From Scytonema millei VB511283 (GTDB lineage Bacteria; Cyanobacteriota; Cyanobacteriia; Cyanobacteriales; Chroococcidiopsidaceae), in contig NZ_JTJC03000001.1 of assembly GCF_000817735.3 (NCBI RefSeq), positions 1,082,128 to 1,126,216 of the forward strand: DNA of 44,089 nt, given 5' to 3'. The notes under the pieces are model-generated. The model saw only the letters and a program-made list of their open reading frames with translations. It ran no database searches and was not told the DNA's origin. The first letter of the stretch is position 1; each line of letters opens with the position of its first letter. Made by a program: the position numbers and the translations under genes. Positions 15,241-43,328 of the stretch are shown piece by piece.

Positions 15241-16677
15241 CTAATAGTTAGTAGTTAATGAATTCTTACCTGTATACTGTGATCTCTTCTCTCCCTCAGC
15301 TTCCTCAGCTCCCTCAGCTCCCTCAGCTCTCTTCCTCCGTCCAGTCATAACCATTTCTACTCTAGTAGGGGCTGAGACTAAACCTCGCCGCATGGGACGT
15401 ACGGGGCGGTTGTTGGCTAGCGAGAGTTCTAAGTTAGATAAGATGGTAGCCAAGACGAGTTTCATCTCAAACAGAGCAAAAGCTGCACCAATACAGCGCC
15501 GCACGCCGCCACCGAAGGGTAAGTACTCGTAAGGAGAAAATTGCCGTTCTAGGAAGCGTTCTGGCTTAAATTGCTTTGGTTCGGGGTAAAGGTCTGGGCG
15601 ATGATGGGCGAGATAAATGCTACCTACTAATACCGTACCTGGTTCTAACTGTTGTCCTAAGAGAGTAACGGGCGATCGCACGACTCTAGGAAAAGTGAGC
15701 ATTCCGATTGGATAGATCCGCAGGGTTTCGGAACAGACGGCGTTGAGATAGGGTAGTCGCACGATCGCGTTATGGTCTGGTGTATCGCCTAGACTATCGA
15801 GTTCTGCCAGCAACTTTTGCCGGACTTCAGGCAGTTTGTGAATCCAATATAATGCCCATGTCAAAGCTGTAGCCGTGGTTTCGTGACCTGCAACTAGCAA
15901 AGTTATCAACTCATCGCGTAATTCCTCATCTTTCATTGGTTCTCCGGCTTCATCCCGCGCCGCCATTAGTAAGCTAAGGATATCGGTACGCGCGGGATCG
16001 GGGTTGGCGCGACGTGCTTCTATTTCAGTTTGGAGGATTTGGTTGAGGTGCTGTTTTTGACGTAAAAACTTCCGCCACGGACTCCACGCACCAAGATCTC
16101 GTTGTAAGAAGGGAAAGAATAGTTGGCTGGCTTTGAGGGGCGAGTTCGTTAACTCCAGCATATCGTAGAGGAGTTTTTCAATCTGTTGATAGGATTCTCC
16201 TTCTCTCAAGCCGAAAACAGCCTGCAAAATGACGTTGAAGGAAATGGCTTGCATGGAATCACGCATGGAGAAAGGCTGATTCGGGTTCCATCGGCTGATA
16301 ACTTGTTGGGTAATCTCGGTAATGATGTCACCGTATGCCTTCATTCGATCGCCATGAAAAGGAGGAACCATCAGTTGGCGATGGCGGCGGTGGCGATCGC
16401 CACTTTGCATCATGACTCCAGAATTTCCTAATAATGGAGTCAGAATTTCGTTCATTTCTCCAGGTGCATCGAACTGCTTGTAAGTATCGTTGGTTAATAT
16501 TTCCTGTAACAGTTGGGGACTGTTGACGTAAACAAGGGGACGATAATTTAAACCTACCTTGAGGGTAAACCAGTCACCATAACGTTGAGCGCAAGACTCC
16601 ATTAAAGCAAAGGGATTAGCAATCCACTGTATCAGTTGAACGAGCGGTGGAGTTTTTGGACCTTGGGGTAGGAACAT
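15241..16677 (-). CDS. cytochrome P450, CYP110-like, with repeat-derived C-terminal tail
   Basis: A 478-residue P450. Visible motifs: I-helix LLVAGHETTATAL (about residue 261), K-helix ETLR (about 316), and heme loop YLPFGGGVRRCIGAAFALFE with the cysteine ligand near residue 392. The N-terminus PQGPKTPPLVQLIQWIANPF fits the CYP110 group of cyanobacteria, whose members hydroxylate fatty acids, alkanes or terpenes. The natural end is around VEMVMTGRRK. The last ~34 residues (AEGAEGAEEAEGEKRSQY and TTNY) are translated 9-mer and heptamer repeats at 15241-15345. No redox partner gene is adjacent. Confidence 0.92.
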   Translation of the reverse strand: MFLPQGPKTPPLVQLIQWIANPFALMESCAQRYGDWFTLKVGLNYRPLVYVNSPQLLQEILTNDTYKQFDAPGEMNEILTPLLGNSGVMMQSGDRHRRHRQLMVPPFHGDRMKAYGDIITEITQQVISRWNPNQPFSMRDSMQAISFNVILQAVFGLREGESYQQIEKLLYDMLELTNSPLKASQLFFPFLQRDLGAWSPWRKFLRQKQHLNQILQTEIEARRANPDPARTDILSLLMAARDEAGEPMKDEELRDELITLLVAGHETTATALTWALYWIHKLPEVRQKLLAELDSLGDTPDHNAIVRLPYLNAVCSETLRIYPIGMLTFPRVVRSPVTLLGQQLEPGTVLVGSIYLAHHRPDLYPEPKQFKPERFLERQFSPYEYLPFGGGVRRCIGAAFALFEMKLVLATILSNLELSLANNRPVRPMRRGLVSAPTRVEMVMTGRRKRAEGAEGAEEAEGEKRSQYTGKNSLTTNY

Positions 16678-31760: not shown

Positions 31761-32618
31761 GTGGATAACGCTGACTTATCGAGAAAGCGACAAAAACATT
31801 CAAATTCTGCAAATCGTCGATCGCCCGATGATATTCCAGAGGCTTTGCGAGATGCAACCCCTTCTAATTCTGGCACTCCATCTAATCGTGCTTCTAGTGG
31901 GAAGCCGATTTATTTAATTGGTGGTTTGCTAGCTGTAGGTGCGATCGCAGTAGGAGCTGGTTTATGGTACTTCACCTCTATCCCATCACAAAACATCACT
32001 CAACCTATACCTACTGTTTCTCCTAGTCCGACTGTTTCTAGCCCTGCAACACCACAAACACCAGTAGCCGACAATCCTTCTCCCGCTAATTCAGACAACC
32101 TTTTAGGACATTTACCGTATCAAGAAGCACCCGAATCAGAACTCGCGCCAATTCTACCAGGAAGTTCCATGAGGTTACGTCAAGCCGCCGCTCAAGAGTT
32201 TCAAGCGATGGTACAAGCGGCTAGAGCTTCAGGAGTCAATTTAGTCCCGATTTCCGGTTTTCGTTCTACCAAAGATCAGCAGCATATCTATTTTGATATT
32301 CAGGCAGAACGGGGTCAATCTGTAACTAAACGTGCCGAAGTCAGCGCCCCTCCTGGCTACAGCGAACATCATACAGGTTACGCCGTAGATATTGGTGATG
32401 GCAATACACCAGCAACGAATTTAAATACTAATTTTGAGAAGACGAAAGCCTTTAAATGGTTAGAGGCAAATGCAGCGAGATTTCACTTTGAAATGTCTTT
32501 TCCCAAGAATAACTCGCAAGGGGTAAATTACGAACCTTGGCACTGGAGATTTGTTGGCGATCGCGATAGTTTAGAAACATTTTATAAAGCCAAAAATCTC
32601 AGTCGCAAGACACCTTAA
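31761..32618 (+). CDS. membrane-anchored VanY-type D,D-carboxypeptidase
   Basis: A 285-residue protein starting with GTG at 31761, supported by AAGGAGTGAG 3 bases upstream. A cytoplasmic hydrophilic N-terminus is followed by one TM helix (IYLIGGLLAVGAIAVGAGLW, about residues 50-70), a Pro/Ser/Thr-rich linker, and a periplasmic VanY domain. The zinc motif is YSEHHTGYAVDIGDG (SxHxxGxAxD) and the last ligand lies in EPWHWRFVG. It trims the terminal D-Ala from peptidoglycan stem peptides. The gene stands alone on the plus strand after the divergent permease. Confidence 0.92.
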   Translation: MDNADLSRKRQKHSNSANRRSPDDIPEALRDATPSNSGTPSNRASSGKPIYLIGGLLAVGAIAVGAGLWYFTSIPSQNITQPIPTVSPSPTVSSPATPQTPVADNPSPANSDNLLGHLPYQEAPESELAPILPGSSMRLRQAAAQEFQAMVQAARASGVNLVPISGFRSTKDQQHIYFDIQAERGQSVTKRAEVSAPPGYSEHHTGYAVDIGDGNTPATNLNTNFEKTKAFKWLEANAARFHFEMSFPKNNSQGVNYEPWHWRFVGDRDSLETFYKAKNLSRKTP

Positions 32619-33250: not shown

Positions 33251-33400
33251 TTGCTATGCTGATTTAGATATAGGGGCAGCTAACGAGTAGCTGGGAGGCG
33301 ATCGCTCTTGAGCGCTTGTGTCAAGGGTGATGTCGCTCTTTAAACTGCAACCTTAGCTAAAAAGTTATATTCAAAATATCGAGTTTTGCTAAAAACCATC
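33251..33400. other. spacer between xisH remnant and Phd antitoxin
   Basis: No xisI remnant is visible. GGAGGCGATCGCTCTTGAGC lies in the middle. It must hold the antitoxin promoter; nothing else is recognisable. Confidence 0.3.
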
Positions 33401-33610
33401 ATGCACCAGATTAACTTAAAAGAAGCCGAGACTCGACTAGCTGAGCTAATTGAAGAAGCGGCAGGCGGGGAAGAAGTCGTTATCATCCGCAGCGATGGGA
33501 AATCTTTCAAAATTGTGCCGCTTGGTACGATAGAAGCAATCCCTAAATTCGGCAGTGCAAAGGGGATAGTAAAAATGTCAGATGATTTTGATGCGCCGTT
33601 AGCTAAGTAG
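33401..33610 (+). CDS. Phd/YefM-type antitoxin without adjacent cognate toxin
   Basis: Start at ATG 33401 (MHQINLKEAETRLAELIEEA), 69 residues; an upstream TTG extension is rejected. INLKEAETRLAELIEEAAGG followed by EEVVIIRSDGKSFKIVPLG is the Phd/YefM fold of type II antitoxins, which usually bind DNA and mask a PIN or Doc/RelE toxin encoded just downstream. Here the next gene, 12 bp on, is on the opposite strand (DUF3368 toxin) and has its own antitoxin. So this is an orphan, or its toxin was lost. The C-terminal part (FGSAKGIVKMSDDFDAPLA) is the typical toxin-binding tail. Confidence 0.85.
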   Translation: MHQINLKEAETRLAELIEEAAGGEEVVIIRSDGKSFKIVPLGTIEAIPKFGSAKGIVKMSDDFDAPLAK

Positions 33611-33622
33611 CAATAAATTAAG

Positions 33623-34093
33623 CTAATCTTCCGTTAGCAACCGTTCTAGTAGGCTTGGTGCGACCCAAAAACCAACTTCTTGCAACTGTTCAAAAGTTCT
33701 CCCTAAATCCAGTAACCCACTTCTAGCAGCATCTTTTATAGTACCCAACAGTCCGACAATCTTTAATCCACGTTCCACTGCAATTTGCCTTGCTGCCTTG
33801 TCATCTAAAATTACTAAATCAGCTTCCAATCGCTCGGCAAGTAGAATTGCTGCTCGTTCACCAGGGTCGAGTGTCGTTAGTTCAATACTCTGAAGAATTT
33901 TAATTGATTGTATTTGCAGCCATTTGGGAGGTTGAGCAATCCAGTTTTTCACCATAGGCGGCGATGCAGATGCACTCAGTTCGCTAGCAACAACTTGAGG
34001 AATAGTGACAACACGATACAGAGTTTGCAGTATTTCAATTTGGTTAATCAGTAACAAATAGCAAATTGGAGAAGTATCAGAGACAACAATCAT
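33623..34093 (-). CDS. DUF3368 PIN-like toxin
   Basis: A 156-residue protein starting MIVVSDTSPICYLLLINQIE. The first Asp (VSDTSP), the Glu of DPGERAAILLAE and the Asp pair of DLVILDDKAAR are the acidic residues expected of a PIN nuclease active site. DUF3368 members pair with UPF0175 antitoxins. The gene overlaps the upstream antitoxin by 4 bp (ATGA), so translation is coupled. The predicted action is RNA cleavage when the antitoxin is lost. Confidence 0.88.
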   Translation of the reverse strand: MIVVSDTSPICYLLLINQIEILQTLYRVVTIPQVVASELSASASPPMVKNWIAQPPKWLQIQSIKILQSIELTTLDPGERAAILLAERLEADLVILDDKAARQIAVERGLKIVGLLGTIKDAARSGLLDLGRTFEQLQEVGFWVAPSLLERLLTED

Positions 34094-34455: not shown

Positions 34456-35319
34456 TTAACTTTTAACTTTTGACTTGCTTACAGCTTTCCTCGCTGTAAC
34501 CCCAATAGTTGAATAATAAATTGCCCACGATCGCAGATCTTCGGCAAATTGACAATACCGATCGATGTCTTGTTGCGTTGTTTTACCCGTAGCAATATAT
34601 TTATCCGCTAATCGCTCGGCAGACATTTTCATAACTGTAGCAATTCCCGAACCACCTGGAGCTAAAGGAGTATCATTCTCTACAGATAAATCTTGCAAAT
34701 TCAACTGTTGAAATATTGCAGGCAATCTAATTCCAAAAGCATAATCCATACCCCTACTAGCAAACATTTGGGCGATCGCCTCATTCACCCGATTCATTGA
34801 CTGACAAGCTGCTTCATTTCCCGCGATCGCTCTAGCAGCAGAAAAATCTGGTTCTTCGATCGCAATCCATCCCCCAGGTTTGAGCAAATCTAACATTTTT
34901 GCGAGAGCAACTTGAAATTCTGGAACATGAATCAACACGTAGCGAGTATGAATTAAATCGAAAGATTGACTTTCTAGCGCTAGATGACGAATATCGGATT
35001 CTATAACTTCTATATTCGCTCGTTTGAGCTTGGCAACAAAACGAGTATTTAAATCGACAGCCACAACCTTACCATCGTCTCCAACAATTTCTGCCATCCA
35101 TCGGGCGATCGATCCTGCTCCTGCACCAACTTCAAGACAGCGCCAATTTGCAGCAATACCTGTTGCTTGAATTCGCTGACGGCTGGCTGGATCGAAGACT
35201 CGTTCGATTGCTTGGAGTCTTGCCAATTCTTTCAGCTCGGTTTCTGTCAATTCATCTTCTTCGGATTCAACTTGAGTCAAAGGCTGAGAATTAGCAAAGA
35301 TGTATGTAGAATCTGACAT
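34456..35319 (-). CDS. class I SAM-dependent methyltransferase
   Basis: Start at ATG 35319 (MSDSTYIFANSQPL; GAGGT 5 bases upstream), 287 residues. SAM-binding motif I is CLEVGAGAGSIARWMAEIV, then VVAVDLNTRF (motif II), then FDLIHTRYVLIHVPEF and LLKPGGWIAIEEPDF (motifs post-I to III). Substrate unknown. The last ~8 residues (SKSKVKS) come from the heptamer array (GACTTTT-type) at 34449-34475, so the native C-terminus has probably been replaced. It is upstream of the UPF0175 antitoxin gene by about 100 bp. Confidence 0.88.
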   Translation of the reverse strand: MSDSTYIFANSQPLTQVESEEDELTETELKELARLQAIERVFDPASRQRIQATGIAANWRCLEVGAGAGSIARWMAEIVGDDGKVVAVDLNTRFVAKLKRANIEVIESDIRHLALESQSFDLIHTRYVLIHVPEFQVALAKMLDLLKPGGWIAIEEPDFSAARAIAGNEAACQSMNRVNEAIAQMFASRGMDYAFGIRLPAIFQQLNLQDLSVENDTPLAPGGSGIATVMKMSAERLADKYIATGKTTQQDIDRYCQFAEDLRSWAIYYSTIGVTARKAVSKSKVKS

Positions 35320-35339
35320 TTTCACCTCTGTAACTCTGA

Positions 35340-35453
35340 TTAATTTTCGATCGCACGACCAATAGAAAAACCTCGGCGTGTAGGTCTACTTTGTGCTAAC
35401 TGTACCTGAAAACTGACGCGATCGCTCGTCCCATCACTTCTAGCCTCCACAGT
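35340..35453 (-). pseudogene. orphaned last 37 codons of pbpC after an in-frame stop
   Basis: Immediately after the TAG at 35456-35454 the same frame stays open to TAA at 35342-35340 and reads TVEARSDGTSDRVSFQVQLA and onward to RRGFSIGRAIEN. Together with the preceding ELRPGN this gives PGN-stop-TVEARSDGTSDRVSFQV, the shape of the last beta strands of the C-terminal BiPBP_C domain of PBP1C (PGxWxLxVxxxxxSDxVxFxV). It suggests a one-codon nonsense change, plausibly TGG to TAG. Confidence 0.7.
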
Positions 35454-37919
<2,466 letters not shown>

Positions 37920-41495: not shown

Positions 41496-43328
41496 ATGCT
41501 ACCGCGCCAATATCGTCAATCCCACCCCATGAAAATCATTTACCCCGCCTATGGCAGTAAAACGAAAACCACCCGCACTGTCGGGCGTAGTTTCCAAGCC
41601 GTAGTGTTAATGCTAGGGATTACTCTTGCCTTGTTTGGTGGGATTGGCAGTCGGCTGGCATATTTACAGCTGATTGAAGGGACTCGCAATCGTCAGTTGG
41701 CAGACAATAACCGCATTCGCTTGATTCCCAAACAGCCAGAACGGGGTAGTATCTTCGATCGCAAAGGCAGAATTTTAGCAACTAGTCGTCTGTCTCATTC
41801 CGTTTACATTTGGCCTATGGCTCCCAAAAAACCGGAATGGGACAGTACTAAACAACGGCTTGCCCAAATTTTACAAATGCCAGCCGCCGAAATTCAACAA
41901 CGCATGGATAAAGCCGGGGTAAATTCTCCTAGCCTAATTCGCATGGCACGAGATATTAACCCCGCTCAAATTACGGCTTTGGCAGAATACAAAAATCAAT
42001 TAAAAGATGTAGAAGTTTACATCGAACCGATTCGCAGTTATCCCAACGGTCAAATCGCCGCCCACATTCTCGGTTATACAGGCGAGATGAATGACGATAC
42101 ATTAGCTGAGAAACGTAAAGAAGGCTATCGCCTCGGAGATGTCATCGGACAAATGGGAGTAGAAGCAGCCTTTGAGAAGCAACTGCGGGGTGAATGGGGC
42201 GGACAACAGGTAGAAGTTGATGGGAAAGGCAGGGTTTTACGATATTTAGGCGAGAAGAAGGCAAGGTCGGGTCAGAACATTCATTTAACGATCGATCTAG
42301 AGTTACAAAAAGCCGCCGAAAAAACTTTGGGCGATCGCCAAGGGGCAATTGTCGCCCTCGACCCCCGTACTGGCGGGGTTTTGGCAATGGTGAGTCGTCC
42401 TACCTTCGACCCCAACGTATTTTCTAAACGCATCACCCCCGCCGTATGGCGCAGCCTGCAAAAGAAAGACCACCCCTTTGTCAACCGTGCCTTAAGAGGC
42501 TTTCCCCCTGCCAGTACGTACAAAATCATCACCGCTACAGCTGGCTTGGAGTCGGGGAAATTTTCGCCTAAAACGCGATTGCAGACTTACGGTTGCATGA
42601 ACATCGGTGGTACGAGATTCTGCGATTGGAATCTTGCCGGATTTGGCGTACTCGATTTTCCTGGGGCGTTGGCTTGGAGTAGCGATACATTTTTCTATCA
42701 AATCGGTCGGGGAATTGGCGGACCGACTCTGATTGAATGGACGCGAAAGTTTGGCTTTGGGCGCAAAACGGGAATCGAACTCGCACCGGAAGAGGCTAAA
42801 GGTTTAGTTGCGGATGATAAATGGAAGCGAGCCAACTATGACTTACCTTGGAAGGTAGGGGACACGGTAAACATGTCCATCGGTCAAGGATTTTTGCAAG
42901 TTTCTCCCTTGCAAGTTGCTGTGATGTTCGCCGTTCCTGCTAGTGGTGGCTACCGGATCAAACCGCACTTACTGCGAGATAACGAGGAAGCGAAGAAATG
43001 GCGGGAGTCTTTAAATATCAAACCAAGCACCGTGCAAACCGTCCGTCAGGGATTGCGACAAGTCGTAGCTAGCGGGACGGGTAGGGCATTGAATTCTCCT
43101 ACCATTCCCCCCGCTGCTGGTAAAAGCGGTACGGCGGAGACTTATAAGAAGAAATCTCACACTTGGTTTGGCGGTTACGCCCCATACAATAAACCAGAAA
43201 TTGTGGTCGTAGCGTTTGCCGAACACTCTGGTGGTGGCGGTGGAAAGCTTTGCGCCCCAATGGTGTTGAAGGTTATGGAAGCTTATTTTCACGGACAGAA
43301 AGCAAAGGGAGAAGTTGTAAGTCGGTAG
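41496..43328 (+). CDS. mrdA: penicillin-binding protein 2, D,D-transpeptidase
   Basis: A 610-residue class B PBP. One N-terminal TM helix (AVVLMLGITLALFGGIGSRL) is followed by the dimerisation domain (RLIPKQPERGSIFDRKGRIL). Transpeptidase motifs: PPASTYKIIT (catalytic Ser, about residue 339), SSD (SxN equivalent, in LAWSSDTFFYQIG), and KSGTAETYKKK (about 542). PBP2 makes peptidoglycan for side-wall elongation and works with RodA, which is not in this window. An internal ATG at codon 12 (MKIIYPAYG) is an alternative start. It is divergent from potA. Confidence 0.95.
   Translation: MLPRQYRQSHPMKIIYPAYGSKTKTTRTVGRSFQAVVLMLGITLALFGGIGSRLAYLQLIEGTRNRQLADNNRIRLIPKQPERGSIFDRKGRILATSRLSHSVYIWPMAPKKPEWDSTKQRLAQILQMPAAEIQQRMDKAGVNSPSLIRMARDINPAQITALAEYKNQLKDVEVYIEPIRSYPNGQIAAHILGYTGEMNDDTLAEKRKEGYRLGDVIGQMGVEAAFEKQLRGEWGGQQVEVDGKGRVLRYLGEKKARSGQNIHLTIDLELQKAAEKTLGDRQGAIVALDPRTGGVLAMVSRPTFDPNVFSKRITPAVWRSLQKKDHPFVNRALRGFPPASTYKIITATAGLESGKFSPKTRLQTYGCMNIGGTRFCDWNLAGFGVLDFPGALAWSSDTFFYQIGRGIGGPTLIEWTRKFGFGRKTGIELAPEEAKGLVADDKWKRANYDLPWKVGDTVNMSIGQGFLQVSPLQVAVMFAVPASGGYRIKPHLLRDNEEAKKWRESLNIKPSTVQTVRQGLRQVVASGTGRALNSPTIPPAAGKSGTAETYKKKSHTWFGGYAPYNKPEIVVVAFAEHSGGGGGKLCAPMVLKVMEAYFHGQKAKGEVVSR

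Follow-up and report, generated by a model that had tools for sequence, protein, structure and literature searches.

A probable recent nonsense mutation near the 3' end of pbpC in Scytonema millei VB511283

The pbpC gene of Scytonema millei VB511283, which encodes PBP1C, probably carries a nonsense mutation that arose recently and was seen in no other genome examined; we give this reading a probability of about 0.7. By comparison of the aligned codons, the difference is one G-to-A transition, found in this genome alone among those examined. No new mechanism is likely to be involved: the change is most probably an ordinary nonsense mutation, or else an error in base calling.

The window analysed here is a 44,089-nucleotide stretch of the genome. 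As it stands, the pbpC open frame occupies 35454..37919 on the minus strand and codes for 821 aa from a TTG. Its N-terminal part is repeat-derived. Heptanucleotide tandem repeats are numerous in the window (27 tandem-repeat rows), and one of them, at 37815-37846, sits inside the putative N-terminal extension; the true start is therefore uncertain. With 568.4 bits against the NCBIfam equivalog PBP_1c (TIGR02073; cut-off 494.2), the product of this minus-strand gene is shown by profile match to be PBP1C. The transglycosylase domain (PF00912; 37140..37655, minus strand; residues 89-260; 181.3 bits) is followed by the transpeptidase domain (PF00905; 36402..36896, minus strand; the best stretch of the match, covering residues 342-506; 69.8 bits) and by a BiPBP_C domain (PF06832; 35409..35657, minus strand; residues 755-837 of the read-through frame), coordinates of domains and insertion in pbpC being converted by hand from protein or codon positions. 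Both matched catalytic domains lie upstream of the TAG that cuts the third. Three further PBP paralogues occur in the genome, with matches that span both catalytic domains. Downstream of pbpC, 14 bases beyond its TAA, is a methyltransferase gene (34456..35325, minus strand), and the same close spacing is found in both congeners. Also near pbpC are genes for a VanY-type D-Ala-D-Ala carboxypeptidase (31761-32618, plus strand) and a class B PBP with PBP dimer and transpeptidase domains (41496-43328, plus strand). A Phd/YefM-like antitoxin match (33386-33610, plus strand) adjoins a DUF3368 match (33623-34093, minus strand), both below Pfam's cut-off.

The pbpC frame reads ...FFWELRPGN and is then stopped by an in-frame TAG (35454-35456, minus strand), where relatives have TGG (Trp). 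The original prediction had described a single in-frame stop after PGN with an open frame beyond it, and this is what the window holds: 37 sense codons (TVEARSDGTSDRVSFQVQLAQSRPTRRGFSIGRAIEN; 35343-35453, minus strand) lead to a TAA (35340-35342, minus strand) at the position where the frames of both congeners end. The TAG thereby costs PBP1C its last 38 residues. The continuation shows homology to the C-terminal end of full-length PBP1C, carries an RRGFS motif near its end and aligns without gaps to the corresponding part of PBP1C from two congeneric genomes, so it is not a chance open frame. The suggestion that it supplies the end of BiPBP_C also held. The truncated frame matches positions 9-73 of the 90-position profile and thus lacks a complete C-terminal domain; with the TAG read as tryptophan, the match extends over 9-90 and its score rises from 38.0 to 45.4 bits.

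The source genome (G000; 5.97 Mb in 17 contigs, rated 99.95% complete) was compared with two congeneric genomes, G001 and G002. Their pbpC genes match at 87-93% identity, in two segments each, and both have TGG at the position of the TAG, then a similar ending and the same spacing to the next gene. A wider homologue set of 87 rows comprised 80 named loci, the best 80 of 150 confirmed by a scan, and 7 loci from whole genomes; a family search at the strict limit of 1e-150 found a match in 7 of 19 genomes. Four pairs of rows (L089/L091, L004/L112, L041/L113 and L044/L114) have identical DNA in the matched stretch, hence 83 homologues are distinct. The codon at the TAG position is TGG in 86 of the 87 rows (82 of the 83 distinct homologues) and TTC in one, from a bin labelled Candidatus Eremiobacterota. 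No stop occurs at this codon among the 83, both congeners included and the named loci being the best 80 of 150. The single change from TGG to TAG that had been proposed is therefore sufficient, and the proposed check on the relatives bears this out, since their proteins here have PGxW-T-V/L-E or a near variant. After this codon the C-terminal motif is GFS in 81 and GFL in 2 of the 83 distinct homologues, with an exact RRGFS in 59. This ending of cyanobacterial PBP1C lies at or just beyond the end of the Pfam BiPBP_C match, and we know of no role assigned to the conserved GFS/RRGFS sequence.

The last 188 residues of the read-through frame were modelled by structure prediction from a 43-row alignment. 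The model has a mean pLDDT of 83 and a pTM of 0.59, and the block means for residues 141-170 are 94-95. Its end strands comprise residues 141-145, 149-157, 160-170 and 180-182, and the stop codon is residue 151. In the model, what is lost with the TAG is most of strand 149-157, strand 160-170 and the short strand 180-182 at the GFS motif. In a Foldseek search against the PDB, the four best matches were FnIII-like modules from CbhA of Clostridium thermocellum (15-17% identity); an S-layer protein came next, and after it many Ig-like domains. The domain as modelled is Ig-like. Six matches had E <= 0.001, with query-normalised TM-scores of 0.35 at best, which are low because the query is longer than the matched domain. 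A PDB sequence search with the C-terminal domain yielded no useful match (one at E 0.77). Loss of core strands, as modelled, should destabilise the domain.

A second peculiarity of this gene is a repeat-rich in-frame insertion of 76 codons (36186-36413, minus strand), which lies some 730 bases from the TAG, in the loop that precedes the transpeptidase KTGT motif. Insertions of 43 codons in G001 and 95 codons in G002 occupy the same place; their content differs from that of the 76-codon one, and none of the three contains a stop. Two genomes of the family have 25 and 27 codons here. A text pattern caught the stretch before KTGT in 71 of the 87 rows and missed it in 16; among the 71, its median outside the genus is 75 residues and its maximum 113. 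It is 89, 122 and 141 residues long in this genus, the 89 of G001 falling within the range of the others. A few other cyanobacterial loci also have long stretches (L048, L040 and L056). The PBP1C loop before the KTG motif thus seems to be permissive and to collect repeats. A tie between the TAG and the repeat insertion was considered and rejected: the insertion is common to the genus and the stop is not, for in both congeners this loop holds repeat-rich insertions and the gene's end is intact. The earlier observation that stop and repeat insertions occur together in the gene is accordingly accurate as description and fails as a link.

The age of the stop was gauged from the 37-codon tail behind it and the 702-codon gene body, insertion left out. 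The body is by codon comparison under purifying selection, with Ka/Ks of 0.11 and 0.13 between this genome and the two congeners. For the tail, Ka/Ks is 0.14 between G000 and G001 (3 nonsynonymous changes) and 0.31 between G000 and G002 (7 nonsynonymous), about equal to the 0.32 (7 nonsynonymous) between G001 and G002; five of the tail's nonsynonymous changes are confined to G002. Changes unique to this genome among the three number 66 synonymous and 28 nonsynonymous in the body, and 3 synonymous and 1 nonsynonymous in the tail. In this test of 37 codons on one branch, the single nonsynonymous change compares with about 11 expected had the tail been free for the whole branch (P 0.0002) and with about 1.5 expected under constraint like that of the body (P 0.56), which limits the free period to less than 0.34 of the branch (one-sided 95%). 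The tail, then, still looks constrained. Since it would have been free for at most about one third of the branch, the stop is on this evidence young, or not effective, or not real. An intact, constrained tail would appear equally under a base-call error or under read-through.

The first of these alternatives, in which an error of base calling or assembly put the TAG into an undamaged gene, we consider unlikely, though it deserves real weight. The coding quality of the assembly appears good, and this speaks for a real mutation. In a strict scan of two 400-kb pairs (about 0.8 Mb of 5.97 Mb) with non-overlapping ORFs of at least 200 aa, at least 80% identity and at least 70% coverage, 306 of 446 G002 ORFs (129,216 query residues) were kept against this genome, and 304 were clean, two had internal stops and none had a frameshift. 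Similarity past the second internal stop comes to only 3 of 14 matches, so that pbpC is the sole internal stop with similarity on both sides among the 306 compared genes. We regard the consensus as good because of this count and the absence of frameshifts; the completeness rating also speaks against an error. In the reverse direction 313 of 456 ORFs were kept and 310 were clean, with one stop and two frameshifts in G002. A looser scan of one 400-kb pair, with overlapping ORFs of at least 120 aa and at least 70% identity allowed, flagged 8 of 151 G002 ORFs, pbpC among them, for internal stops against G000, and 7 of 148 when reversed, plus one frameshift in G002. The cases in G000 other than pbpC were ORFs of 132-249 aa, several with a poor match near the stop; in one, B125, the match near its stops looked good. 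Even so, a single miscalled base could well be present in 6 Mb. The rest of pbpC is intact and its tail conserved and constrained beside a body of low Ka/Ks, just as an error would leave them. The change is a single substitution, one assembly of the species was compared, and four N runs (530 N in total) lie in the first 400-kb stretch sampled from this genome.

Read-through of the TAG, with full-length PBP1C still made by suppression, perhaps at a low or regulated level, is very improbable. The constrained tail would suit it, and a published survey (PMC7918605) argues that in bacteria many genes with in-frame stops are not pseudogenes. TAG is nevertheless a normal stop here. A search of the genome with Rfam RF00005 gave 52 tRNA matches from the 150 of 368 first-look candidates that were scored, and at none of these 52 did ARAGORN read a CTA, TTA or TCA anticodon. 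A pattern search for CTA-type tRNAs gave four matches, against seven in a backward control. Two lie within tRNA genes, both Arg-TCT, and were rejected; around the remaining two ARAGORN finds no tRNA. The genome's 84-kb contig C12 bears a tRNA array (L189:16381-17866) with 12 ARAGORN tRNAs and one extra. The latter (L189:17427-17501), missed by ARAGORN and found by cmscan with Rfam, has by manual reading the anticodon GTG (His), not CTA, and a weak, damaged tRNA-like piece at the array edge (16242-16305) reads GTC; folding gave no cloverleaf for either piece. The release factor gene prfA (RF1) is present (531 bits), and TAG is the terminator of 133 of 456 ORFs in this genome and of 139 of 446 in G002 (0.8 Mb from each), so the picture is of RF1 kept and TAG not avoided, unlike that of amber recoding. 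Programmed read-through would go with a stop conserved across species, whereas none of the 83 distinct homologues has one, and no second gene of the 306 has a both-sided internal stop. A leaky, strain-specific TAG switch, giving mostly short, inactive PBP1C and a little read-through product that keeps the C-terminal domain under selection and tunes cell-wall synthesis, is a very long shot. Equally doubtful is an old or adaptive stop, with the shorter protein as the working form and the tail dispensable. Both catalytic domains do precede the stop, and the nonsynonymous share of body changes on this branch is low (28 against 66 synonymous); but the tail shows one nonsynonymous change where about 11 would be expected had it been free throughout (P 0.0002), its GFS or GFL ending is universal in the homologue set (81 and 2 of 83), and the TAG interrupts a domain that is modelled with confidence. 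The original prediction had offered recent loss, suppression and sequencing error side by side. Recent loss is the best supported of these and sequencing error possible, and suppression is left without support.

If a recent nonsense mutation is indeed the cause, a G-to-A transition would have turned the conserved pbpC tryptophan codon TGG into TAG. Translation would then end there, with transglycosylase and transpeptidase kept and the last Ig-like strands and GFS tail absent. The cut C-terminal domain would probably be misfolded or unstable, and PBP1C impaired or lost. Such a loss may be tolerable, since the genome encodes further class A-like PBPs and PBP1C is dispensable in another bacterium. 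Among the listed papers on PBP1C with BiPBP or in cyanobacteria, on pseudogenes in Chroococcidiopsis, on stop read-through and on heptanucleotide repeats, no title or abstract opening names the PBP1C of this strain or its C-terminus. Annotation should mark the PBP1C of this strain as truncated, or the base should be checked again; the protein should not be taken for a normal short PBP1C. If real, the allele shortens the C-terminus of PBP1C naturally and could help to show what role the Ig-like BiPBP_C domain and RRGFS ending play in cyanobacteria. The general picture is unchanged by a truncated pbpC.

Compared with known PBP1C (TIGR02073), this protein passes the equivalog cut-off and has all three Pfam domains. 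It differs in that its BiPBP_C ends at profile position 73 of 90 and the conserved GFS ending is gone, and in the repeat-enlarged loop before KTGT, a feature shared with its congeners. The closest parallel is the single-nonsense allele treated in the survey by Belinky et al. (PMC7918605), according to which in-frame stops are widespread in bacterial genes, have dN/dS below 1 and tend to persist briefly. As with those alleles, one substitution makes the stop, the orthologues lack it and have a sense codon one change away, and the downstream sequence is intact, in frame, constrained and homologous to the orthologues' C-terminus, consistent with a short-lived state. No feature was found that sets the pbpC case apart from such alleles. 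Its stop lies near the 3' end, costs 38 residues and is seen in none of the other species examined.
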